Below, piece by piece: positions 3,331-23,309 of a DNA stretch of 23,801 nucleotides. Both the position numbers and the translations under genes were made by a program. The notes under the pieces are model-generated. The model was not told the origin of the DNA, ran no database searches, and saw only the letters and a list, made by a program, of their open reading frames with translations. Position 1 is the first letter of the stretch, and every line of letters begins with the position of its first letter. The DNA comes from a virus, in IMG/VR virus record IMGVR_UViG_3300034061_000934, positions 1-23,801 of that record; one strand, written 5' to 3'.

Positions 3331-4064
3331 TACTGGGTTGGTTGTGCATTAGGAGCTTGCCCATCAACACCGTTATCTGCCATATCTGTTTTAATACTAA
3401 AATATGTAGATAATAATTTTTGAGACGTAAGCTCTAATACTTGTTTCTCAAGATATCCTGGACAACCATATTCTTTATCCAAAGGATTTTTGCAGTATTC
3501 TTCATCAGTAACCTCAGGACCAGTTCCACAACCACATTCTGGATACGCAATATCATTAGGAATATCTTCTTCAAAGAATGCTGATATCCTAACTGATTTT
3601 AAATTTGGATTACTCAAATATAAGTAACCTTCATTTGCTATCCAATAGTATGTTTGTTTTTTAATAATAGGAAGTCCCAGTAAGTTTAAATATCTATTGA
3701 TTGTAATCTCTTTAAACTTTGTACCCATTCCTCCCATAGCGTTTATAGAATAAACACCTTGTATTAAATATTGATAATTTCCTTCTGTAATCCTAGGAAG
3801 TTTATATTTACTTCTAGAAACAGTACACGGATCTACGTAATTACAACAGTCAGAAATAGGAACTTCTACCATTTCCAAACATTGGATGGTATTAAAGACA
3901 GTATCAGTAGCCCAAAGCTTTCTGAGATTTGTCTCACGTTTAACTAATAACTGTGTGTTGTTTCTAATCTCTGATGCAATAACCCTATCTGTGATAACGT
4001 TATCTGTGGATATAAGCTTATGCATTCCACGCACATCTGAAACTAACTTACGTAATGTTGCCAT
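3330..4064 (-). CDS. Connector/ring-type structural protein (244 aa)
   Basis: A soluble mixed alpha/beta protein. It starts with a helical N-terminus (MATLRKLVSDVRGM), followed by a TDRVIASEIRNNTQLLVKRE segment and a beta-rich middle containing YYWIANEGYLYLSN. Cys pairs occur near residues 72-81 (SDCCNYVDPC) and 176-191, so metal or disulfide stabilisation is possible. The overall pattern resembles ring or tail-tubular proteins in crAss-like structural modules; that resemblance is from memory and not from alignment. Its ATG overlaps the phosphoesterase stop by one base (TAATG), and its own stop overlaps the next ATG the same way. It is therefore the second gene of a tightly coupled operon. 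The C-terminus is a Gln/Pro-rich short tail. Confidence 0.58.
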   Translation of the reverse strand: MATLRKLVSDVRGMHKLISTDNVITDRVIASEIRNNTQLLVKRETNLRKLWATDTVFNTIQCLEMVEVPISDCCNYVDPCTVSRSKYKLPRITEGNYQYLIQGVYSINAMGGMGTKFKEITINRYLNLLGLPIIKKQTYYWIANEGYLYLSNPNLKSVRISAFFEEDIPNDIAYPECGCGTGPEVTDEEYCKNPLDKEYGCPGYLEKQVLELTSQKLLSTYFSIKTDMADNGVDGQAPNAQPTQ

Positions 4065-5305
4065 TATAAATACTGTTTAAATATATTTGTCATTCCTGAC
4101 CCTTGTTCTATTAAGAATCCAGTCACTTCTGCTTTAGACATTGTATGACCGTTCTTATCATCCCAAAGGCTTTTAGCATTAGAAAATGCTGGTATTTGGT
4201 AAAATTTAATACCATTAAAGTCGTGACTTACTTCATGGTGTTTGTCTCCTGTGAATATGTAGAAGTTGTTATGGAAAGACCATCCTTCTCTAAATTCTAT
4301 TGGGAATAGTGCTGCTAACTTAGCAGGTTTGATTGCATCCCCATGGTTAAACATCATTGCTGAATTACCATAGCTTATATACTTTCTATACTTAGGAGAG
4401 CAGTCAAAAGTTAATCTATCTGTATTTCTAAAATACGTTTGTAACCAATTAACCATGTGCCATCCTACAAACTCATCATGATTACCTGCTACGTATACAA
4501 CATTCACATTCTCAGCGTATTGTAATAACATTGTAATCATCAACACCTCATGTCCACAGATGTATTCAAAAGATGTATGGTATGTATGAGTGTTTGTTTG
4601 AGGAGTGCCTTTTGTGGTCATTCCTGTAAACTCACTGTTAAACTCATCAGAACCAATAATGTATGTAATTTGCTCTAAGTTGTTAGAAAGCTGTGCTTGA
4701 TTAGCAATCAACTCTACCTTGTACATAATATTAGAAAGTCTATCAACTATATCATTGTTGCCATCAATATCATATTTGTTTAAATGAGAGTCTTGTTTGT
4801 TAATAATTAACATACCGTTACTCTTACCATTTATAAACTTAGGACTCATAATATCCTGACTAACAGGCTCATATGAAGCTAAAAAGTCCACAAAGCTATC
4901 TTGAAACACTTGCTCTGCAGACTTCTTTCCTAACCAGGCTTTTACTTGCCAGTGTGGACTATCTCCGTTTCCCCAATAGTTTTGTACGTATTTAGTTATC
5001 TCCCACTTATCTGTGTCTATCTTACACTTCTCAATAAGCTCATCAAGGCTTTTAATCTCTTCTGTAACGTTAGCTACAATCTCTCCAGTTCCTTTCACTA
5101 GGTCTTCTGTAAACTTAACTACAGTGTCCTCTAAATCAGATATATAGTTCCCAGTGATGGCCTCTTCTTCTCTCTTTCTAATATCTGTTAATAACTCATC
5201 AATCTCTAATTCTGTCACTCCTAGCTTGTCAGCGTAATATTTCTTTGATTTTTTCCAGTGTAACATCTGCTGTAGCTGCTCCAAAAGGGGTTGGTTTCCA
5301 GACAT
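4064..5305 (-). CDS. Metallophosphoesterase with N-terminal helix-turn-helix-like segment (413 aa)
   Basis: A calcineurin-like phosphoesterase, expected to hydrolyse phosphodiester or phosphomonoester bonds with two metal ions. Visible metal-site motifs are D172-S-H174 (motif I), G218-S-D220-E-F-N223 (motif II, normally GDxxD/N), G274-N-H276-D-E278 (motif III, GNHD/E), H321-G-D323, and G353-D-K-H-H357 near the GHxH position. The last deviates from the canonical motif but keeps histidines. Residues 8-45 look like a small helix-turn-helix (KYYADKLGVTELEIDELL). A coiled segment and a Trp-rich patch (about 101-125) follow. No signal peptide is present. It is the first gene after a strong terminator and has its own candidate promoter, and it leads the ring/muzzle operon. 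Nuclease, nucleotidase and phosphatase activities are all possible. The HTH suggests nucleic acid as partner, which is inferred. Confidence 0.85.
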   Translation of the reverse strand: MSGNQPLLEQLQQMLHWKKSKKYYADKLGVTELEIDELLTDIRKREEEAITGNYISDLEDTVVKFTEDLVKGTGEIVANVTEEIKSLDELIEKCKIDTDKWEITKYVQNYWGNGDSPHWQVKAWLGKKSAEQVFQDSFVDFLASYEPVSQDIMSPKFINGKSNGMLIINKQDSHLNKYDIDGNNDIVDRLSNIMYKVELIANQAQLSNNLEQITYIIGSDEFNSEFTGMTTKGTPQTNTHTYHTSFEYICGHEVLMITMLLQYAENVNVVYVAGNHDEFVGWHMVNWLQTYFRNTDRLTFDCSPKYRKYISYGNSAMMFNHGDAIKPAKLAALFPIEFREGWSFHNNFYIFTGDKHHEVSHDFNGIKFYQIPAFSNAKSLWDDKNGHTMSKAEVTGFLIEQGSGMTNIFKQYL

Positions 5306-7376: not shown

Positions 7377-8249
7377 TTATATACATCCTCCATCACACCC
7401 TGCAAATGTATTCAACACAAGATAACTTCCTATATCACCACTTACTACTGTATATGTTGATGTAGTTAAAGATACTCCTGCATTATTAGCACAATTGGCA
7501 TCATTAATTATATTTCCAGTTGTATAAACATTTGCATATGTATCAGGCGGCCCACATGGAACATATATATTTAATTCTACATAAATTGTATCTCCTACTC
7601 CAACATTGTATGTTCCACTAGAAGTATCTGTTCTAGTTTCAATTGCAGTTCCGTTTACATATAATTTCATTTCTCCAGCAGGTCCACCTGTTTCACTAAA
7701 ACTCCATTCTAAAGTAGCATATCCTACAGGAGTGTTACAAACTACAGTGAGTCCATCATAATTACATTGAGGTAAAGTGGTTGTACTAGTTGTAGTGCAT
7801 GGATAGTTTGAATAACAACATGCTCCATAAATTACAGCACTTAAACGAGCACCAACAACTGAACCTCTCAATATACCACAACCTGTATATCCTCCAGATG
7901 GTTCTTGAGTCATGCAACCTATAATACCTGCTGCTTGACCATAAGGAAGATAAAAATAATATGTATTTCCAGAACAATCCTCGTATGATATAGTTTGACT
8001 AAATCCAAATGCTAAATTATTTTCTACTATAACATCTCCTACGCAAGGACAAGGGAAGTCTTGATATTTAGGAGCTCGTGTATTAGAATAGCTTTCCCAA
8101 GGACTAACATAAGGATCTATATAATAATATGTATTAGCCTCTCCTTTAGTCATAATGTTACCATCAAGAGGAGGAGTTGTTCCAGCCTTCTGTCTGTATC
8201 CCATTGTAGCAAGATCTGCTCCTGTTACTAAAAAATTATTAACTTTCAT
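7377..8249 (-). CDS. Cys-rich tail/fibre-associated protein with Thr linker (290 aa)
   Basis: The N-terminal 65 residues contain a GEANTYYYIDPY motif of a kind I associate with appendage proteins of Bacteroidetes phages. Cysteines are frequent at 67-163 (FPCPCVG, EDCSG, IGCM, TGCG, ACC, YPC), suggesting disulfides or metal sites. A Thr-rich linker lies at 152-158. Residues 160-290 form a beta-rich C-terminal domain with more Cys (GGPAGEMKLYVNG, TIYVELNIYVPC) that could be a beta-sandwich. There is no signal peptide. Its ATG overlaps by one base the stop of the 573-aa fibre gene, so the two are translationally coupled and may form one appendage. The precise function is not recognised. Confidence 0.58.
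   Translation of the reverse strand: MKVNNFLVTGADLATMGYRQKAGTTPPLDGNIMTKGEANTYYYIDPYVSPWESYSNTRAPKYQDFPCPCVGDVIVENNLAFGFSQTISYEDCSGNTYYFYLPYGQAAGIIGCMTQEPSGGYTGCGILRGSVVGARLSAVIYGACCYSNYPCTTTSTTTLPQCNYDGLTVVCNTPVGYATLEWSFSETGGPAGEMKLYVNGTAIETRTDTSSGTYNVGVGDTIYVELNIYVPCGPPDTYANVYTTGNIINDANCANNAGVSLTTSTYTVVSGDIGSYLVLNTFAGCDGGCI
7776..7796 (-). repeat. Thr/Ser codon run (linker, residues 152-158 of the 290-aa protein)
   Basis: A short TTTSTTT linker separates the Cys-rich N-terminal half from the beta-rich C-terminal half, the same type of hinge as in the two neighbouring proteins. Confidence 0.6.
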
Positions 8250-9970
8250 TATTGGTTTAATTTAGCTTCTAATTCTGCTATGCGTTTTTCTAATTGTGCT
8301 ATTTTTAATGTATGTACATCTGAATAGTTAACCACTAATTTATCTTCTCCTGATACAACATCTGGTAAAATTGCTTGTACCTGTTGTGCAGAATATCCAT
8401 ATCTAACTTGATTAGACTCTTCATCTGTACGAGTAAATTTAATTACTTGTATTCCTAATACATCAATATTAGGATTTGTTTCTAATACATTTTTAAATCT
8501 AATATCTGATGTTTCATAGAATGAACCAGCATTTAATTGAGAACCACTAATTGTAACTCCTGAATTTGCTGTTGCACTATTTGATGTTCCATTAGCTGTA
8601 AGTACATAACCAGCTGTTGTAGGAGAAATAGAATTAAATCCTGCTCCATTAGCTCCACTAGTTCCAGAGGTTCCTGAAGATCCACTATTACCAGAGGTTC
8701 CTGAAGTTCCAGTTGTTCCACTTGTTCCATCTACTCCACTTGTACCAGTTGTTCCACTTGTACCAGTTGTTCCAGATGTGCCTGTAGTTCCACTTGTACC
8801 TGTAGTTCCTGAAGTACCAGTAGTTCCACTTGTACCAGAGGTGCCTGACGTACCAGAAGTCCCTGACGTTCCACTTGTACCAGACGTACCAGTGGTACCA
8901 GATGTGCCTGATGTACCAGTGGTACCACTAGAACCAGCTGTTCCAGATGTTCCTGAACTACCAGCAGCACCTACAGGAACTATCATGAATGTTTCACCAC
9001 TTACAGGATTTGTACCCTGAGCTGCAGTTTGAGTAACTATAAATCTTTCAAAACCCACTTCAAAAGGAGAAGTAGATACAATTTCTAATATTTTAAATCT
9101 AGAAGAATCAACCGTACTAACTAGCTTAAGTGCTGAGAAAGGGTTCAGTGCATCTAGATATGCTGAGAAGTCAGCACTAGGATTATATGATAAATCACTG
9201 ATTGCAATTTGAGAAGCAGATGCTAACCAACTTGCATCATTTAAAGTGAAATATGTAACACCAGGGTTAACGTTTGTATTTGTACTAGGATTAAATCTCC
9301 ATTGTGCAAGACCTCCTTCAAAACCTGATGTACCAGAAGTTCCAGTCGTTCCTGAAGTTCCAGTGGTTCCTGAACTACCAGAGGTACCATCTATTCCAGA
9401 AGTTCCAGCTGAGCCAGAAGTTCCATCTATCGCACTTGTTCCAGAAGTTCCATCTATTCCAGAGGTTCCTGAAGAACCATCAGTTCCTGAACTTCCTGTA
9501 AGACCACTTGTACCATTTGCACCACTGGTTCCATTAATACCACTAGTTCCATCAGCACCTCTTGCACCAGATGTTCCACTGGTTCCTGAAGCACCGTTTG
9601 TACCACTTATACCAGAAGTACCAGAAGTACCGTTACCACCAGAAGTACCATTTGCACCAGATGTACCAGATGTTCCAGAAGCTCCTGGAGTTCCGTTAGC
9701 ACCAGAAGTTCCTGATGTACCACTAGTTCCACGAGTGCCAGAAGAACCAGACGTACCAGAAGTACCTGTTCCTCCACCACCTGTACCAATAGAATCATCT
9801 ATTTTTGATAGTGCACAGTCTAGATTATCTCCAGTGTGAATTCCTGTATTAGGTAAGTTAGGTCCATTATATATAACATGATCTGCTGTTGTCTCACAAG
9901 GAGAGCATCCAGAAGTTTGATTAGGATGATAATAAGCGTCATAGCAAGGTGTACCAGGTAAACAAGACAT
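8249..9970 (-). CDS. Gly-Thr-Ser repeat tail fibre with C-terminal S74 intramolecular chaperone (573 aa)
   Basis: A trimeric fibre in all likelihood. Residues 1-60 are a Cys-rich N-terminus ending in an anchor motif, Y34-x-G-P37-x-L-P40-x3-I44-x-T-G-D48, shared with the 367-aa fibre. Two blocks of Gly-x-y repeats, mostly GTS, cover about 62-219 and 335-443. A globular beta domain (about 220-334) lies between them. Residues 488-573 are a Peptidase_S74 domain: SDIRFK at the start with Ser488 as candidate autocleavage nucleophile, YGYSAQQVQAILPDVV in the middle, and a C-terminal coiled coil (IAQLEKRIAELEAKL). This domain folds the trimer and cuts itself off in phage endosialidases and other fibres. 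The Gly repeats lack the prolines of collagen, so a triple helix or polyglycine-II-type rod are both possible. It is coupled to the downstream 290-aa gene. It is the likeliest receptor-binding fibre here. Confidence 0.85.
   Translation of the reverse strand: MSCLPGTPCYDAYYHPNQTSGCSPCETTADHVIYNGPNLPNTGIHTGDNLDCALSKIDDSIGTGGGGTGTSGTSGSSGTRGTSGTSGTSGANGTPGASGTSGTSGANGTSGGNGTSGTSGISGTNGASGTSGTSGARGADGTSGINGTSGANGTSGLTGSSGTDGSSGTSGIDGTSGTSAIDGTSGSAGTSGIDGTSGSSGTTGTSGTTGTSGTSGFEGGLAQWRFNPSTNTNVNPGVTYFTLNDASWLASASQIAISDLSYNPSADFSAYLDALNPFSALKLVSTVDSSRFKILEIVSTSPFEVGFERFIVTQTAAQGTNPVSGETFMIVPVGAAGSSGTSGTAGSSGTTGTSGTSGTTGTSGTSGTSGTSGTSGTSGTSGTTGTSGTTGTSGTTGTSGTTGTSGTTGTSGVDGTSGTTGTSGTSGNSGSSGTSGTSGANGAGFNSISPTTAGYVLTANGTSNSATANSGVTISGSQLNAGSFYETSDIRFKNVLETNPNIDVLGIQVIKFTRTDEESNQVRYGYSAQQVQAILPDVVSGEDKLVVNYSDVHTLKIAQLEKRIAELEAKLNQ
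8642..8968 (-). repeat. Gly-Thr-Ser repeat block 2 (residues about 335-443 of the fibre)
   Basis: Near-perfect tandem 9-base units encode G-T-S or G-T-T triplets. On the plus strand they read as ccagaagttcct-like words and yield spurious Val-Pro-rich open frames. This block is purer (long GTSGTSGTS runs) than block 1, which suggests recent expansion. Confidence 0.85.
9314..9787 (-). repeat. Gly-Thr-Ser repeat block 1 (residues about 62-219 of the fibre)
   Basis: Tandem Gly-x-y triplets with more variation (GAN, GID, GIN, GLT, GAR) than block 2. They form the shaft between the N-terminal anchor and the central globular domain. Triplet count is likely variable between strains. Confidence 0.85.
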
Positions 9971-15154: not shown

Positions 15155-16708
15155 TTAGAATTGAGGAATTTCTTCAATCAATACTGTTCTAGATAAATCT
15201 TCAATGAATACATCACAACGATCTTTCATCCAGATTTCGTATCCTGGGAATTTATTTGCAGAACTCATACCTTGAGACTTAGCAAAACCTAAGTGGTGAC
15301 GAGTACCATCAATATAACCCCAAGTCATAGAAGGAGCACCCTTCATACGTACTTCACGAATGTTGTTGATCATAGAACCATCAGACATTGGAGATACATC
15401 AAACACCATAAATACTGGAGTTGACTTCTTATTCTGACCAAATTCTAAGTTTGTTTGAGGAAGATCTAATTCTTTCAAGTGGATCAATTCAACACGACCA
15501 GTCTCACGTGTAACCATTGCATCAAATGCAAAGTTGTAAGTAATGTGTTGACCTTCTCCTTGTAAATATCTGTTACCAGAATCAGCCATGAAAGTTAAAC
15601 CTGAATTCAATGCATCATTCTTTAAAGCTTGTTGGAACACGTCAAAACCAGCTTCGTTAGTGTACATTTTAACTCTACGATCCTTAACATCAACACGTCT
15701 GTAGAACAAGTCACCAAACACTGAACGAATCAAGTTTGCAGTGAACTCACCACGGTTGTATTGTACTAAGTTACCGTTGTTACGCATTCTGTGGTAAACA
15801 CCAGCAGATGTACGCTTTAATTCTTGCTTAGAACCATTAGTCTTCACAGTACCAGGCTTAGCCCAGATCATACGCTTAACTTTCAATTCTAACATAGACT
15901 TACGCATCCAGAACTCAATAAATGGTTCCCACTTAACATCATTACGAGTTAAAGGTAATTGGTTACGTCTTTGAGGAGCATATACTAAAATGTCTAAAGC
16001 TTTACCAGAAGCATCAACCATCATCTTATCATCAGCCCACTCAGTGATTTTGTGCTCATAACCATATGCAGAACCTAAAGATTCAAACATTGTGATTTGC
16101 TCACCTAAACGAGGAAGACCTAATAAGTCTTGGTCAAATTCACCAATTGCAGCATCAACTAATTCCAATTCAATACCAACTCTTAAGAAGTTAGGACTAA
16201 CAAAATCTACAGTTGGATTGTCTGTAACTAAAGTGAAAGTGTATAAGTAACCCATGTTCCAGTTTACTGGATCTTTGATTACATAGAAACGAGGACCATA
16301 CTGACGAGTACCTACAGATACAATTGCATTCTTAGAGAACTCATTAGTATCAATTACTAATTGGAACTCTTGACCATCAATACCTGGCTTACTCAACTCT
16401 AAAGTTGTTGTAGGTACATCAATGATTTTAGGGAATTTGTATGGAACTTGTACCTGCCACTTCCAAGCATCACTATTGTTATCAATATAGTAAGGAGTGC
16501 TCTTGTTAATCATGTCCAAGAAGTCATTACTGTAAAGAGAGCTCTGGGTATACAAACTGATAATTTTCTTATCATAATCTGCTGGCTCTGTAGAGTGAAA
16601 GCTTTCCAAGTGGTTAGCATCTGTTAATTTACCTACAGCACGCTTGTCCATAGAAGCTACTCTTGCGTAAGTAAAACCAGTTAAACCTGGAATTGTTTGA
16701 ATTGCCAT
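15155..16708 (-). CDS. Major capsid protein (517 aa)
   Basis: Identified by position (terminase, portal, scaffold, then this gene), by length typical of an HK97-fold capsid subunit with an insertion, and by composition: soluble, mixed alpha/beta, without motifs of an enzyme. A beta-strand-rich body (PTTTLELSKPGIDGQEFQLV, then FVSPNFLRVGIELELVDAAI) and a long helix-bearing region (FWMRKSMLELKVKRMIWAKP) are visible. Codon choice favours CGT for Arg and C-ending codons more than most neighbours, consistent with very high expression. The start is preceded by an A-rich leader (AAAAAAATAAAAAATG). Strong RNA structure follows the stop. The capsid assignment is contextual but hard to replace with another gene here. 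Confidence 0.85.
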   Translation of the reverse strand: MAIQTIPGLTGFTYARVASMDKRAVGKLTDANHLESFHSTEPADYDKKIISLYTQSSLYSNDFLDMINKSTPYYIDNNSDAWKWQVQVPYKFPKIIDVPTTTLELSKPGIDGQEFQLVIDTNEFSKNAIVSVGTRQYGPRFYVIKDPVNWNMGYLYTFTLVTDNPTVDFVSPNFLRVGIELELVDAAIGEFDQDLLGLPRLGEQITMFESLGSAYGYEHKITEWADDKMMVDASGKALDILVYAPQRRNQLPLTRNDVKWEPFIEFWMRKSMLELKVKRMIWAKPGTVKTNGSKQELKRTSAGVYHRMRNNGNLVQYNRGEFTANLIRSVFGDLFYRRVDVKDRRVKMYTNEAGFDVFQQALKNDALNSGLTFMADSGNRYLQGEGQHITYNFAFDAMVTRETGRVELIHLKELDLPQTNLEFGQNKKSTPVFMVFDVSPMSDGSMINNIREVRMKGAPSMTWGYIDGTRHHLGFAKSQGMSSANKFPGYEIWMKDRCDVFIEDLSRTVLIEEIPQF

Positions 16709-16744: not shown

Positions 16745-18031
16745 TTATTGAAACCATGAGGTAGATTTAACTGGTTGTTTAGATTTCACAGCACTTTTAC
16801 TAACCTGTCTGGCTACCTCACCAAACAATTCATTTGACTTTTTGGTGACACCATTCTTTTGAATCGTAGAAAGTGTAGGATCTTTTTCTAAGATCTTAAG
16901 TAAAAGAGCAACTTTTACTTTTCTTTCATGATTCTCAGGACGTTTAAGTTCTAGAATAGTACGATCAAAGTCTGTTAATGTTTCACCAGAACTTGTCTTA
17001 TACTTATCTGTTACTAAGAAATCTTGTAGTTCACCAGCCAGTTTTGGATTAAGAGGAATACCATCAAACTCTTTTGCTTTTAGCTTGTCTTGTAACACTG
17101 CTGTTACATTCTGAGCATATTGATGTTTATATTGAGCTTGTTGTTGTAATTGTATTTCTTTCTCTTGTTCCATTTGTTGAAGCTTTGCAGCTTCTTTCTT
17201 AACTAAGACCTTGTGATGCTTTGTAGCAACACTTTCTAGATCTCCGTAGTTCTTAAGTCTTTCAACTTCAGATGTAACATCTTCAGGATCAAGTCCTTGA
17301 TCAGCTAAAGCTTGTTTAATTATAGAAACCTGATTTGCTTCTTGTGCAAGATCCATTTCAGCAAAAGATTGAATTTGGTTATATGCACCAAAGTAATCTT
17401 TAGGATCAACTCCTTTTACAAATATGGCATCAAATGCATTACGATAATCTTCTCCAAATTGACCTAAGAAGTTATCAACCACTTCAATAGCTCCTTTCTT
17501 TTTCTCAGCATTAAACTTTTCTAAGAATTGTTCTGGAGTTGTAATTGTTTCTTCTTCGTCATCTTCTTGAGTAAATACACCCAATTTGAAAAGGTCTTTA
17601 GATAAAGATGAAAATGTTGATTCAGGAGCATCATCTCCCTCTTCATCAGCATCATCTTCTTTACTATCTTGTTTACTAGTTTTTGTAACTGGTTGATTAT
17701 CAGTGTCTTCTGAATCATCATCACCATCTTCATCTTCTCCACCTAATAAGAAGTCTGTTAAAGATTTCTTTTCATCAGGTTTTTTATCAGAAGTGTCATC
17801 ACTAGAATTATCTGCAACAGGTTTTTTACCAGAATTTGCAGAAGTAGTTTTTTTCTCAGGAGCAGGAGGGGGAGGGGGAGTGTCATTGATATCCTGAATA
17901 TCATCAGGATTAGATGTGGCACTATCAGGGCCCATTAAATCGCTTAACAATTCAGCGTTGCCCATTCCCATTTCCATTGTATCTTGGATACTAAAGTTCC
18001 CAAAACCTGGATTATCTAGATTTTCAGCCAT
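16745..18031 (-). CDS. Acidic scaffold-like capsid assembly protein (428 aa)
   Basis: Residues 1-50 include PDDIQDINDTPPPPPAP. Residues 55-160 are extremely Asp/Glu/Ser-rich and probably disordered (GEDEDGDDDSEDTD). Residues 260-330 form a Gln/Lys/Glu-rich coiled coil (KEAAKLQQMEQEKEIQLQQQ). The C-terminus is basic (KSAVKSKQPVKSTSWFQ), as expected of a scaffold that binds the capsid shell from inside. It is located between portal/SPFH and capsid genes, the normal position of scaffolds. No protease domain is evident. It is transcribed from a candidate promoter directly upstream. Whether it is cleaved or leaves intact cannot be told. Confidence 0.75.
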   Translation of the reverse strand: MAENLDNPGFGNFSIQDTMEMGMGNAELLSDLMGPDSATSNPDDIQDINDTPPPPPAPEKKTTSANSGKKPVADNSSDDTSDKKPDEKKSLTDFLLGGEDEDGDDDSEDTDNQPVTKTSKQDSKEDDADEEGDDAPESTFSSLSKDLFKLGVFTQEDDEEETITTPEQFLEKFNAEKKKGAIEVVDNFLGQFGEDYRNAFDAIFVKGVDPKDYFGAYNQIQSFAEMDLAQEANQVSIIKQALADQGLDPEDVTSEVERLKNYGDLESVATKHHKVLVKKEAAKLQQMEQEKEIQLQQQAQYKHQYAQNVTAVLQDKLKAKEFDGIPLNPKLAGELQDFLVTDKYKTSSGETLTDFDRTILELKRPENHERKVKVALLLKILEKDPTLSTIQKNGVTKKSNELFGEVARQVSKSAVKSKQPVKSTSWFQ

Positions 18032-18060
18032 ATGTAGTTGAGTTTTAATTGGTTTTGTAA
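18032..18060 (-). promoter_or_regulatory. Shared 5' leader before the scaffold-like gene
   Basis: Minus-strand AAACCAATTAAAACTCAACT runs into ACATATG. The match to the leader at 14987-15014 includes the exact ACTACATATGG end. No Shine-Dalgarno is present. Confidence 0.5.
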
Positions 18061-18062
18061 TG

Positions 18063-18093
18063 TAAAAGTATACTATAGTAAATTAATATCAAA
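18063..18093 (-). promoter_or_regulatory. Candidate Bacteroidetes-type promoter for the scaffold/capsid operon
   Basis: On the minus strand TTTG (18093-18090) is followed after 19 bases by TACTTTTA (18070-18063), close to the TAnnTTTG -7 box. The box ends 32 bases before the start codon, almost the same distance as in the candidate at 5335-5367 (30 bases). The 120-bp gap here is otherwise very AT-rich and has no ORF. Confidence 0.5.
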
Positions 18094-18151
18094 GAGATGA
18101 AGCTCTATATAGATCATTATTTAAGATAATATAGCATTAATATTTTTTACT

Positions 18152-18682
18152 CTAATCTAATTTATTAATAAAGTTGTCATTTATAAGTCTAATACTTCTT
18201 ATTGGAGCTAGGTCAGTAAGCGTAACTTGTTGAACTTCAACCCCCCACTTCTTAGCTTCCACTCTAACTTTCTTAGTAAGAGTGTTATCAAGTTCAGCAT
18301 CTGTACATTCATCTAATGTCATAGACATAATGACATTTTTAATGATGGCTTGTGACATATCTGATATAGCATCTTGGGCATCCCAAACTTCTAATAAGAA
18401 TATTTTAACGTCAGCTATCTTATATTTAACCAATCCTTTTACAACAATGTTTTGTTTATCTGCTGTATACAAAGATTGTGCATCAAGACTTAATGTTGTA
18501 GTGACAACATGCTGGTCAATCACCTCATCAAACATTGGGATTTTGAAATGTATTCCAGGTTCAAGAACTTTTTTAAATTTTCCAAACCTAAGTAATACAG
18601 CTTTCTCGTAATCTCTTATTATAATTATTGGGGTTAGTTGTAACCACCAATTAGATATAATCTCAATGAGTTTATCAAACAT
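18152..18682 (-). CDS. SPFH/band-7 (stomatin/prohibitin-like) membrane protein (176 aa)
   Basis: An N-terminal hydrophobic segment (about residues 8-22, IISNWWLQLTPIIII) would anchor or embed it in the inner membrane. An SPFH domain follows: EKAVLLRFGKF (26-36), LEPGIHFKIP (40-49, the stomatin PGxHF motif), LSLDAQSLYTADKQNIVVKG (64-83), and WGVEVQQVTLTDLAP (146-160). It ends after the SPFH domain and lacks the long C-terminal coiled coil of cellular stomatins and of HflK/HflC, which are typically well over 250 residues. The start lies 2 bases after the portal stop, so it is cotranscribed with terminase and portal. The stop is TAG. SPFH proteins form membrane scaffolds and modulate proteases such as FtsH; a phage role in protecting assembly, in membrane organisation or at lysis is inferred. 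Confidence 0.85.
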   Translation of the reverse strand: MFDKLIEIISNWWLQLTPIIIIRDYEKAVLLRFGKFKKVLEPGIHFKIPMFDEVIDQHVVTTTLSLDAQSLYTADKQNIVVKGLVKYKIADVKIFLLEVWDAQDAISDMSQAIIKNVIMSMTLDECTDAELDNTLTKKVRVEAKKWGVEVQQVTLTDLAPIRSIRLINDNFINKLD

Positions 18683-18684
18683 AA

Positions 18685-21267
18685 TTATTTAGTTTTCTTG
18701 CTAGCTCTGTTCTTAGCATTTGTTTGAGCAATCTTTAAGTCATTAACTTGATTCTCTCTTTCAACCTTTAATTTTTCTTTTTCTAATGCAATCTTTTGTG
18801 CAGCCAACGAGTTCTTAGCCTGGATGTCTGCCATCTTTGCTTGATAGTCGTTTGCAGCTTTAGATTGATCATTCATTAACTTATCAATTTCTAATGCATC
18901 AGGAATGTTATTCATATCTGCATCTGGTAATCCACCTTTAGATTCAGCAGCAATGATTGCAATCTCTTTTTTATTGATTCTATCCAACTCATTTTGATAA
19001 TCATCATGAGCCATTTTCTCAGCAGCTTGTTGTTGTGCAGCAGCAATTTGTTGATCAGCAATTTGTTTTTGCTGCTCCATTTGTTGTTGTTGCTGTTGCA
19101 TCTTCTGATCTTCTAATTGTTGCTGACGGTCTTTAAGTGTCTTAAATACCTTCTTCATCTGACGTACAGAGTTAGTGCTGTAAAGCTCAATGATATCATG
19201 TAATGATCCACCATTCTGAAGAACAGCTTGAGATAATCCTCTGATTTCATTAAACATTTTCTGATCTTCTGGTCTATTAGTTAAATACACTTTAAGATCA
19301 CGGAACTTAAGATCATTACCATTCACTTGTACAAATGCAGATTCTCCTTCATTAGTAATATAAGAAATAGTTGATTCAGGCTTCTTAGCTTCTGTGTATA
19401 ATGATGCGTCAATGATTGCTTGATAAAGCTGACCTAATACATACTCATGAGCAACAAATATAGGCTCAGTTTGAGAATAAGATTGTGTAATAGCAGTGTT
19501 AGTACCTGTAGCTGATTCACTAGCTGATACAGATCCCATACGTTGTCTAGACATACCTATTAATTCCCAACACTCATTCTTTAATTGTTGAGCTAGTGTA
19601 TACCTAGATTGGATCTCTTGCGTACGTGTAAGGTCAATATCACGGAACTGGTTAAATGATGATGGACTCTTCAAATTTTCTGGAGAATCATCAATAAACA
19701 TTACACCACGGTTACGTGCTTCCATTTCCCATACATCAAGAGCATCTTGAGCATCTCCATCTTTAGGAATAGGAATATGTCTAATAGATGTTAAATACAC
19801 CTTACCAACTTCTTTTTCTAACAGCTTGTATAACTGATTCATACAAACGTTATATAGAACTTGAAACGGTTTCATCATATCTACCAAACTTCTAGCTTCT
19901 GTATTCTTAACTTCATGAACTAATCCAATAATAGGACAATAGTTTAATAACTTGTAAGGTTTAATGTGATAGATGTCTGGACCAATCTTAACACCTTGGT
20001 ACCATTGATTAATCCAACCCCATTCTAAAGACTCTTCTGTAGGAATAGTTCCTGACTTATAGGTTTCATCAACAAGCATAGATTGCTCATTGCCCATTTC
20101 ATCTATATAAATTAACTTACCAATCTTCTTTTTAGAAATCCAATATGTACGTATAACAACATACTTGTAACCAAATGAACTAACATTAGATGTAAGACCT
20201 AAGAAGTCTTGTAAGCCATCATTGTTCTCTTTCATTTCAGACTCAATCACCATTCTTGTTTGTAACACTAATGGGTCATATGTATCATATTGCACTGAAT
20301 CAATACCTGGAATAGCATTAGGATTACCTAAATTAGATTCACGTACATTAATTAAACCATAGTCTTGTAACGAACTACGTAAATGATCTATCTCTTCTTT
20401 AGTAATATCAGGGAATGTTTCAATAATTTCAGATAGTTCCATCACCATAACTGTACCAGCAGCATATGCTCCTTGTGCACGTCCTGAAGGATCTGAAATA
20501 TATTTTCTGTCTGGTGTAGTTAAGAAGAATGTATTTTTAGGATTAGCCACTTCTACATTAAATCCCACCTTTGAGTTATCTTCATAAATGTGATAGAACT
20601 CTCTAGCTGAAATTAATAAATCTCTAAAAGCGTCCTCACTCTTTTCTTTCATTATGAATTCAGCTTTTTGAGCTGTTAGTACGTGGTTAGCCCATTTCTC
20701 TGCAACAGATGTGTAAGAATCAAGTTGATCCTGCACTTGATCCATTGTCATTTGTTGTAACTCTTCATCAGGAATTTCTTCTCCTCTTTGAGCAGCTTGT
20801 TCTTGTACCTTAGCTTTAGCTTGACTAATTACATATTCTTGTAATATACCTGTCTTAAATTCTAACTCTTCTGCTTTACTGTCATCATCAAAAGCTTTCA
20901 CACGGAAAGCATCTGGACGTTTAGAAATCTCACCTACTAATTCATTAATAGGTGTTGTCATTATAGAATAATGTTTTACATATGCAGGAAGCTGTAAATC
21001 AGCTGTTAACATATCTGTAAAACTTCTCACCTCAGGTTGTTGGTAAAAATCTTCATGTCTTAAAATACCCTTAACAAGATCGTAGTTCTTAACAAACGTA
21101 TCACGGTTCTTTACATACTCAGCATATGCTTTGTTTGCAAAGTAGTCCATTGTATTCTTTATCCAACTCTCATCCATCTTTTCCTTCTCAGTTTTAAACT
21201 GATCAGGGAAGATGTTTAAATAGGCATACCTAATCGTTGCGTCTTTTGTATATCTTATAATTGCCAT
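18685..21267 (-). CDS. Portal protein (860 aa)
   Basis: Large portal directly following the terminase, overlapping its stop by one base (TAATG). Order and size match portals of crAss-like phages. The N-terminal 600 residues form the body (clip, stem and wing; MTTPINELVGEISKRPDAF near 103-121; NPKNTFFLTTPDRKYISDP; a long helix region SMRQRMGSVSASESATGTNT-like near 560-590). Residues about 705-770 are a Gln-rich coiled coil (QKMQQQQQQMEQQKQIADQQ), probably the crown or barrel. At 782-790 an EF-hand-like loop D-x-D-x-N-x-I-x-D appears. A second charged helix (about 800-855) and a basic end follow. No transmembrane segments. It forms the dodecameric DNA channel at one capsid vertex. Confidence 0.85.
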   Translation of the reverse strand: MAIIRYTKDATIRYAYLNIFPDQFKTEKEKMDESWIKNTMDYFANKAYAEYVKNRDTFVKNYDLVKGILRHEDFYQQPEVRSFTDMLTADLQLPAYVKHYSIMTTPINELVGEISKRPDAFRVKAFDDDSKAEELEFKTGILQEYVISQAKAKVQEQAAQRGEEIPDEELQQMTMDQVQDQLDSYTSVAEKWANHVLTAQKAEFIMKEKSEDAFRDLLISAREFYHIYEDNSKVGFNVEVANPKNTFFLTTPDRKYISDPSGRAQGAYAAGTVMVMELSEIIETFPDITKEEIDHLRSSLQDYGLINVRESNLGNPNAIPGIDSVQYDTYDPLVLQTRMVIESEMKENNDGLQDFLGLTSNVSSFGYKYVVIRTYWISKKKIGKLIYIDEMGNEQSMLVDETYKSGTIPTEESLEWGWINQWYQGVKIGPDIYHIKPYKLLNYCPIIGLVHEVKNTEARSLVDMMKPFQVLYNVCMNQLYKLLEKEVGKVYLTSIRHIPIPKDGDAQDALDVWEMEARNRGVMFIDDSPENLKSPSSFNQFRDIDLTRTQEIQSRYTLAQQLKNECWELIGMSRQRMGSVSASESATGTNTAITQSYSQTEPIFVAHEYVLGQLYQAIIDASLYTEAKKPESTISYITNEGESAFVQVNGNDLKFRDLKVYLTNRPEDQKMFNEIRGLSQAVLQNGGSLHDIIELYSTNSVRQMKKVFKTLKDRQQQLEDQKMQQQQQQMEQQKQIADQQIAAAQQQAAEKMAHDDYQNELDRINKKEIAIIAAESKGGLPDADMNNIPDALEIDKLMNDQSKAANDYQAKMADIQAKNSLAAQKIALEKEKLKVERENQVNDLKIAQTNAKNRASKKTK

Positions 21268-23309
21268 TATGTAAACAATTTATTTCTTTTATATTTATTA
21301 TGAGAGGTTCCAAACATCCCACCTCTTGATTCTGTAAACAGTACGTTTCCTTTCTTCTTACTAAACATTGCCTTCACTCTATCATCAGATGTTCCACCAA
21401 TCTTACCCATAATAGGGTCCATCTTTAATGCTTGTGCAATAGCTAACTCTGCAGCAATGATTCTATCAAAGTTACCTGAATCATTGTATTGTATAATCTC
21501 TTCAAGCAATACAGGATCAAATATCTTACTCACACCTAGCACTTCTCTTATAGTATCACCAGCCTCATTTGTTTCTTTGAATATCACAGACTCCATATAC
21601 TTCTTTAAGCAGGTGTGAAGATACTCAATTATTTTGTCACTTGAACGATGAATTCCATAATCTCTTTTAACTGTTGTGTTTGGAACAATTTCTTTAAGCC
21701 ATTCAGGTTGTCTCTCTAAATAGTGAGCATCCCCTTTAGCCTTCATATATTCTATAAATGATATATCATCATTCTCACACAGTGTTCGTGCATTATAATA
21801 CTTGATAAGAAGTCTAGCTTGTTCTTCCCAAATTTCTTTCTTATCAGGTCTTGCACAGTACGAAGCTACAAACATATCTTGATACTTCTCACCACTAATT
21901 TCATGCATCCTTTTATATATGAACACAGAACCAAGTGAGCTTGAATATGCAGATTTACCTTGTCTATAAGGGTCAACTCCTGCTACATACAATCCATAGG
22001 GAGGGTTTTCTACAGGAAATTCATATATAACTATAGGAGCATCTTTTGTATCACTGTTCTTTAATGGAAAGTTAGATATAGGAAGCTTGTCTGTAAACTC
22101 ATGCTCAATACCATTTTCTCCAGAGAACAATATAACAGGAGTTCCTGTTCTTTCTTGTTGTAACAGTCTGGTTTTCTGTCTCTTAGCTGATTCAATATCA
22201 AAGATGTTGGTATCCTCATTCAGGAAGATGTCATCCACCTCCATTGGGTAGTACATCTTTTCTTTTAAATAAGCAATCCTATCTCCAGCCTTTTTAAGTC
22301 TTTCTAGATTCTTTTCTGTAATCTCTTTAGCTCTTTCCTCATCACCCACTAACATTTCAACATTATATAAATCTGATTCAGCAGGTTCATTTAAGAAAGC
22401 TCCTAGTGTAGATTTCTCTTTAGCTTCCATTCTATATTTAGCTGGGATGAATAAGCCATGTACACGCTTATCATCTTTAGCATTATTATATGTAAGAAAA
22501 TTAAAGTTGTCTACGTCAAACATCAGGGATTTTGCATCCTGAAATTTCTTCATATCACCACCAGTGCCTGTGAGAATTGGAGAACATCCCCAACCATAGG
22601 GTGTAGTGAAACCTGGTATAGCCGCCTGTAAACCTCTAAGAAAATTTCCTTTACCAATCTCATCTATAATTAATTTACGTGGTTTTGTACCTGCAATTGC
22701 TTCTTCATTATTACCTTCATCAAGGTTACGTATCAGAATGGAAGAGAATGGGATACGTTCACCAGATTTGGTTTTAATACCTAATGTGACCTGGTTTTTC
22801 CAGTTATCCTCAATTCTCTGCCATCTCCAATACTCAGGGATAAAGTTTAATCCTTTATCTATTTTATCCGTAATAAGTTTTATATCTGGTGCATTCAAAC
22901 CAGCAATAATATTCTGGGAGTTCTCATCAAATGTTGCACCCCATGCAATATAGGATGCTTCAAGAACGGATTTAGCAAAACGTCTAATACCTAGAATAAC
23001 CAAGCCTTTTTTTTCCTGTTGGGCCCTGTCAATTTCGTTTGTTACCAGCCACTCATTATCTCTTAAAAACGGATTAGCATATTTTTGTGCAATTCTTCCT
23101 CTTTCATCTATAACATCCACCTCAGTGTGCCATATATTTAGGTGCCAATATAAAAAGGGGTTGATATATACACCCCCCATCATAGCACCATTCAAACATA
23201 ATTCTCTATGAAAGTCAAAAAATGGTTTACATTCATCAGAATCCTTATCAGGAATACGTTTCTGATTTATAAACCAGTCTTTATAATCTATGTTCTGTAG
23301 TTCAATCAT
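21267..23309 (-). CDS. terL: Large terminase subunit (680 aa)
   Basis: Packaging ATPase and nuclease. The ATPase half has a Walker A-like loop G107-I-R-R-F-A-K113-S114 (an atypical phage-type P-loop), Walker B LIIDEIGK at 213-220 with D216 and E217, and a coupling motif TGTGG at 247-251. The nuclease half has D446 in AGVDPYR, E512 followed by NDD in LCENDD, and D615 in SGNFDRIIAAE, matching the acidic triad of RNase H-like terminase nucleases. Length is within the range for this family. The stop overlaps the portal ATG and the start overlaps the preceding 110-aa gene stop, so packaging genes are translationally coupled. Confidence 0.93.
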   Translation of the reverse strand: MIELQNIDYKDWFINQKRIPDKDSDECKPFFDFHRELCLNGAMMGGVYINPFLYWHLNIWHTEVDVIDERGRIAQKYANPFLRDNEWLVTNEIDRAQQEKKGLVILGIRRFAKSVLEASYIAWGATFDENSQNIIAGLNAPDIKLITDKIDKGLNFIPEYWRWQRIEDNWKNQVTLGIKTKSGERIPFSSILIRNLDEGNNEEAIAGTKPRKLIIDEIGKGNFLRGLQAAIPGFTTPYGWGCSPILTGTGGDMKKFQDAKSLMFDVDNFNFLTYNNAKDDKRVHGLFIPAKYRMEAKEKSTLGAFLNEPAESDLYNVEMLVGDEERAKEITEKNLERLKKAGDRIAYLKEKMYYPMEVDDIFLNEDTNIFDIESAKRQKTRLLQQERTGTPVILFSGENGIEHEFTDKLPISNFPLKNSDTKDAPIVIYEFPVENPPYGLYVAGVDPYRQGKSAYSSSLGSVFIYKRMHEISGEKYQDMFVASYCARPDKKEIWEEQARLLIKYYNARTLCENDDISFIEYMKAKGDAHYLERQPEWLKEIVPNTTVKRDYGIHRSSDKIIEYLHTCLKKYMESVIFKETNEAGDTIREVLGVSKIFDPVLLEEIIQYNDSGNFDRIIAAELAIAQALKMDPIMGKIGGTSDDRVKAMFSKKKGNVLFTESRGGMFGTSHNKYKRNKLFT

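Follow-up and report, generated by a model that had tools for sequence, protein, structure and literature searches.

The window, by which we mean the whole stretch of DNA analysed (23,801 nucleotides, IMG/VR record IMGVR_UViG_3300034061_000934), is a 23.8-kb virus record from a Crassvirales-type phage, with matches to Crass_capsid (5.6e-27), CrAss_Ring_1 (3.8e-10) and P22_portal (1.7e-14), each above its cut-off. On its minus strand, a small open reading frame occupies a slot between the portal gene and a gene that is called gene 77 here because its position matches the order TerL-portal-gene77-MCP given in a figure legend of PMC7886860. The features of the region are the following:

15155..16708, minus strand: major capsid protein (MCP), context (Crass_capsid 5.6e-27)
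16745..18031, minus strand: gene-77-like protein, a putative scaffold, which borders the slot downstream (phrog_16294 3.7e-07; named by position)
18032..18151, minus strand: AT-rich intergenic stretch from the slot to gene 77, alike in 17 loci with SPFH and still recognised where other cargo precedes it
18152..18682, minus strand: compact SPFH/Band_7 gene, 176 amino acids (Band_7 7.3e-27; fold match to stomatin, HflK/C and QmcA)
18155..18202, minus strand: short C-terminal tail in place of a coiled coil (AF2 model)
18203..18622, minus strand: SPFH domain, residues 21-160 (Band_7 match and AF2 model)
18635..18679, minus strand: amphipathic helix at the N-terminus (residues 2-16) that probably anchors the protein in the plane of the membrane (AF2 helices 2-10 and 12-16)
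18685..21267, minus strand: portal protein, which borders the slot upstream (P22_portal 1.7e-14; phrog_6547 2.3e-102)
21267..23309, minus strand: terminase large subunit, context (phrog_6681 1.2e-87)

The SPFH reading frame begins with an ATG, and two bases separate it from the end of the portal reading frame at position 18685, as the first-pass annotation had stated. A chance reading frame or a contaminating sequence was ruled out by the identical gene order of 29 loci. Downstream of the slot, the motif around TTAATGCTATATTAT in the AT-rich stretch keeps its place behind differing cargo, and it was also found behind cargo other than SPFH in the loci L134, L175 and L166. This motif may regulate gene 77 and the MCP, conceivably acting as a promoter; a search of the gap (18032-18151) for a sigma-70-like site gave none. 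Elsewhere in the window, positions 8249-9970 encode a collagen-like GTSGTSG repeat protein, the end of which may be an intramolecular chaperone domain. In a listing of 60 out of 140 named records, the portal nearest by score to that of the window (8e-72) belongs to Leptolyngbya phage Lbo-JY46 (PP438436.1), for which a cyanobacterial host is given.

Fold and membrane end of the SPFH protein

The product of the 18152-18682 gene matched Pfam Band_7 with an E-value of 7.3e-27 and 95 bits (gathering cut-off 23.6), and it contains the motif PGIHFKIP that had been read from the sequence at the outset. Its sequence matches in the PDB were stomatin, QmcA, HflK and HflC. An AF2 model made with an input of 16 phage sequences had a mean pLDDT of 78.7, and a Foldseek search with this model placed human stomatin, HflK/C, QmcA and prohibitin at the top, with an E-value of 3.7e-14 to stomatin and 63 PDB matches at E <= 0.001. 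Profile and fold thus bear out the initial identification of an SPFH/stomatin-like protein. The best NCBIfam families were HflK (TIGR01933, 77.3 bits vs a cut-off of 159.4) and HflC (TIGR01932, 51.5 vs 134.4); since these scores are below the equivalog cut-offs, the protein is best described as HflK/C-like and a member of neither family. The gene is under purifying selection, with dN of 0.08-0.15 vs dS of 0.97-1.66 in the three of six comparisons where dS was computable.

The first-pass annotation had also described an N-terminal membrane segment. A helix that binds the membrane is likely at this end, but its character is amphipathic, and no transmembrane stretch was found. Within the first 45 residues the best 19-residue Kyte-Doolittle mean was 1.24, and the hydrophobic moment of residues 2-17 was 0.53; because of these values, in-plane or monotopic attachment appears likelier than a transmembrane span. 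The helix varies among relatives: the moment was only 0.19 in L125 and L562 at the fixed positions used, and the hydropathy maximum of the L137 protein was 1.65. At the opposite end, the C-terminal oligomerisation region is missing, as had been noticed early on. The Band_7 match stops at residue 160, residues 164-176 have a pLDDT below 50, and the SPFH chains from full complexes in the Foldseek list are mostly about 240-304 residues long, vs 176 here.

A truncated protein of this kind could be a decoy directed at the host, an idea that goes back to the mixing with host rings suggested in the first-pass annotation. It would enter HflK/C, QmcA or prohibitin-like assemblies and block the closure of their cages, thereby altering the access of FtsH to phage or host proteins, and its association with the second phage protein described below, MZ, would be secondary. 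HflK and HflC are the closest curated families, the coiled coil that a cage requires is missing, and HflKC modulates the FtsH proteolysis of lambda CII according to the available text of PMC12005517. Nonetheless, we consider a decoy rather unlikely, in part because the 77 bits obtained stand against an HflK cut-off of 159, and in part because the SPFH domains of HflK/C are periplasmic (PMC12005517, available text) while that of the phage probably is not.

An optional slot between portal and gene 77

Relatives were surveyed for an SPFH gene next to the portal, as the first-pass annotation had proposed, and the close SPFH loci all carry it there, in the order portal, SPFH, gene 77, MCP (29/29). 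Slots were then scored in scans seeded with the portal or the MCP of phage Lbo-JY46, taking the best 80 loci of each; the slot was scored only where portal and MCP were both present (248/292 loci), which dropped 3/80 loci from the portal scan and 15/80 from the MCP scan. In these two scans, which overlap, include near-copies and, for the portal, started from an alignment containing SPFH-bearing phages, the slot held SPFH in 44, was empty in 29 and held something else in 4 of the 77 loci scored by portal, the corresponding numbers being 15, 42 and 8 for the 65 loci scored by MCP. Among the 12 slots with other content, nine (L134, L175, L248, L253, L258, L272, L276, L279 and L290) hold a cassette of two reading frames, one of about 80 amino acids and the other an 84-amino acid HExxH protein (HEHFHLKHPDW). 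This cassette alternates with SPFH in the slots of close sisters. L226 has a different HExxH reading frame (HEGLH), L166 has one of 73 residues, and in L118 gene 77 was not recognised. An extra reading frame of about 68 amino acids was seen between portal and SPFH in L130 (about 8514-8720), so a slot may accommodate two genes. The SPFH proteins themselves can diverge within the slot, those of L124, L125 and L137 being 29, 29 and 46% identical to that of the window.

A portal tree was built from 100 representatives, drawn from 218 loci that were clustered only inside one state (a procedure that favours the counting of changes). Along this tree the SPFH state changed at least 13 times, with at least 10 of the changes forced by well-supported branches. 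SPFH matches per whole record were one or none (15/26 and 29/43 records). The slot of the five annotated relatives contains no SPFH gene (0/5); a longer copy is present elsewhere in Lbo-JY46 and in Cellulophaga phage phi4:1, and the remaining three have none. Since the slot is optional and its state switches this often, the SPFH gene is accessory cargo that can be exchanged and does not belong to the packaging core. A core packaging role was discarded as the main reading also because close sisters lack the gene. The early description of SPFH as built into the terminase-portal operon therefore holds for the location, which is fixed among close loci, but not for the status of the gene, as the empty slots in both scans indicate.

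These observations bear on two further explanations. SPFH could be a morphogenetic factor that docks the portal, or the nucleation of the procapsid, at the membrane, a variant of the suggestion in the first-pass annotation that procapsid assembly is placed there. The fixed place directly after the portal agrees with such a role, as does the compact SPFH gene behind TerL in the podovirus MW202733. It is very improbable, however, since an optional slot with at least 13 state changes makes procapsid placement unlikely, the close sisters L134 and L288 have intact packaging genes and no SPFH, and in the phage G075 an SPFH gene lies about 8.5 kb from the terminase, adjoining MZ. The second explanation is that SPFH is a moron for superinfection exclusion or counter-defence that works with no protease: a patch of SPFH would change membrane domains so that the DNA entry of a rival phage, or a membrane-bound defence, fails. 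An exchangeable slot, a patchy distribution and a probably membrane-binding helix are all in line with it. We regard this as distinctly unlikely, as it leaves the linkage to MZ unexplained.

MZ, a candidate partner of SPFH

The MZ proteins have about 140-152 residues and an HExxH..EE signature, and they are putative membrane-anchored zinc peptidases. A hydrophobic helix is found at the N-terminus of most members and a lipobox-like start in some, and residues H101, E102, H105, E123 and E124 are invariant in 14/14 aligned members. No Pfam family scored above its cut-off, an NfeD match was found in none of six different members scanned, and there is no AAA domain. Structure searches with Foldseek (E <= 0.001) and VIA-align (Z 5 or more) returned no match and listed no zincin, although such a fold may still be present; the designation as a peptidase accordingly comes from the motif. 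In searches for a host origin, two pattern-based scans of genome contigs, one with MZ and one with the paired SPFH, found no relative at tblastn E <= 1e-3; scans of this type would miss distant relatives. Five phage records with an MZ-like match were viewed out of 16 (two from Salmonella and one each from Klebsiella, Pectobacterium and Bacteroides), and none of them has an SPFH gene annotated nearby.

MZ emerged from a comparison of 131 gene families between 10 records with SPFH and 11 without it, all of 91-118 kb. After SPFH itself it was the top correlate, present in 8/10 and 0/11 records, respectively (p 2e-4 before correction). In the same 21 long records, a second small family (ending ...LKSQEI...) was present in 8/10 and 1/11. 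When only records showing the conserved HNH-like gene that anchors the MZ locus (the anchor gene) were counted, MZ occurred in 23/29 with SPFH and 0/15 without it, figures that refer to records that were not dereplicated (44 rows, 40 different portals) and to MZ-positive records many of which had been found via SPFH. A scan with MZ yielded 52 loci and eight further long records, five of them with SPFH (four with a portal match, plus G075); the other three are uninformative on the slot because their portal match is missing too. Two additional SPFH-negative genomes had no MZ beside the anchor gene. Overall, with six more records added and G023 left out as too distant, the enlarged set of 49, likewise not dereplicated, gave 27/33 and 0/16. 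Wherever the SPFH slot was assessable, MZ was thus seen only alongside SPFH, a statement that covers a minority of the short MZ contigs. Since 6/33 SPFH-bearing records have no MZ, SPFH can act in its absence. This last figure would suit the insertion of SPFH into host cages discussed above, an idea that otherwise leaves unexplained both the absence of MZ from SPFH-negative records and the adjacency of the two genes described below.

The association was also considered on the phylogeny. Independent pairs were concordant in 2-4 cases and discordant in none, too few for significance (sign-test p 0.125-0.5). A likelihood model of dependent trait change was preferred over an independent one (LR 30, p 5e-6), a result that we treat as supportive only because the fitted rates sit on their bounds. 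Informative here are the close sisters that differ at both the SPFH and the MZ locus, distant as these are (L265/L134 and L101/L288). In the clade of the window, MZ and SPFH are mostly on opposite strands and tens of kilobases apart (G016, G012), and therefore the timing of their expression may differ; in G011 a single strand carries both, with about 7 kb between them. The window, a fragment, has no MZ inside. We infer that its phage carries MZ because MZ is present in the relative G016, the SPFH protein of which is 99% identical to that of the window.

A compact SPFH gene comes directly after MZ, on the same strand, in 10 of the 52 MZ loci, at distances from an overlap of 20 bases to a gap of 5 bases. 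By inspection, these ten loci represent about five sequence lineages, and the four other lineages share 45-50% identity with G075 in MZ and 66-76% in SPFH. In the other 42 loci, the anchor gene known from the window's clade is no more than 3 kb away, and MZ overlaps the 3' end of this gene in 33 and lies about 600 bases behind it in 9. G075, the only pair-bearing phage examined, is a distant relative of the window's phage, as its terminase and portal PHROGs are of the window's kind and its capsid PHROG differs. With the SPFH protein that is paired in G075, the slot SPFH proteins of L125 and G070 share 65 and 71% identity, and they belong to one subfamily with the paired proteins. This combination, direct adjacency in some phages and slot SPFHs of the paired subfamily in others, is the strongest evidence suggesting that MZ and SPFH work jointly.

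The reading that we find slightly better than even is that SPFH, as exchangeable cargo, provides the scaffold in a module of SPFH and a membrane protease that the phage encodes. While the pairing is supported by the genomics, the module further implies that MZ would contact SPFH, be catalytically active as a protease on some substrate and be of benefit to the phage. SPFH would lie on the surface of the inner membrane through its amphipathic N-terminal helix and form small oligomers, patches or arcs, closed cages being less plausible because CC1/CC2 are missing. These oligomers would collect or restrain MZ, and possibly the host FtsH, in the membrane and would thereby decide which envelope proteins are cleaved and which are left intact while infection runs. 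The likeliest uses of such a module would be envelope remodelling, superinfection exclusion or counter-defence. The first-pass annotation had linked SPFH to membrane proteolysis by way of host FtsH-type proteases; the link survives in another form, since the genomics ties SPFH to a membrane HExxH protein of the phage itself, which would supply the activity. Topology is a problem for the pairing, as MZ probably faces out and SPFH, having no export signal, probably faces in. The main domains of FtsH and HflKC are likewise on opposite faces of the membrane. The wider proposal, that phages encode a minimal SPFH-metallopeptidase membrane machine, organised as a two-gene cassette in one lineage and as split slots that tend to be gained and lost jointly in the window's clade, we place a little short of an even chance.

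Comparison with known systems

Other SPFH genes of phages were compared first. Accessory SPFH/band-7 genes (phrog_200 'lipoprotein', the Skarpretter band 7 protein, Lbo-JY46 and phi4:1) also place SPFH on phages, but the three copies viewed are about 260-283 amino acids long and located away from terminase and portal, and that of Lbo-JY46 has a lipobox-like N-terminus unlike that of the window. The prohibitin-like protein of MW202733 (podovirus ctgrD200) resembles ours in being a compact SPFH directly behind TerL, but it is 27% identical and comes from a different phage; no relatives of it were found in viral contigs. In this 45-kb genome (L296), the gene spans 3935-4498 and encodes 187 amino acids from the earliest start, the annotated start being internal. 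The phage-labelled record MT835563.1 was excluded, since its ORFs point to a piece of bacterial DNA. The phage-labelled OR851800.1 and OR851783.1 (S.Kent) match SPFH and resemble host DNA, and so do Salmonella contigs with HflK/HflC matches. Judged by titles and opening lines of abstracts, the PMC literature searched (with few subscription journals and no outside preprints) showed no paper that deals with an SPFH gene next to the portal or with a phage SPFH-metalloprotease pair, and the words SPFH, stomatin, prohibitin and protease are absent from the available main text of the Crassvirales papers PMC7886860 and PMC10136315.

Two cellular systems are closer in organisation. HflKC encloses FtsH (PMC12005517, available text), and the phage proteins share with HflK/HflC-FtsH the SPFH fold, the nearest NCBIfam families and an SPFH scaffold tied to a membrane HExxH protein, in the phage a putative protease. 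Unlike that system, the phage SPFH is single and has neither a transmembrane helix nor a coiled coil, and its putative partner has about 140-152 amino acids and no AAA domain. The available text of PMC10153343 describes stomatin in operons with the STOPP/NfeD protease, likewise a compact pairing of genes for SPFH and for a protease of the membrane (putative in the phage), and stresses CC1/CC2 for cage formation. However, STOPP is a Ser-Lys protease while MZ has the HExxH..EE signature with no NfeD match, and the phage SPFH stops before the C-terminal region that STOPP cleaves. Independently of these comparisons, the portal/gene-77 slot is a simple marker for further accessory cargo in crAss-like phages. 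If the proposed module is correct, it would point to proteolysis at the membrane as a strategy of phages from a widespread group. With about 150 plus 176 residues, the SPFH-protease pair would be small enough for study in its entirety, away from host systems that are essential. The role of an SPFH scaffold towards a membrane protease, which HflKC-FtsH has so far left open, could be tested with it, and the phage pair would join HflKC-FtsH and stomatin-STOPP as a third form.
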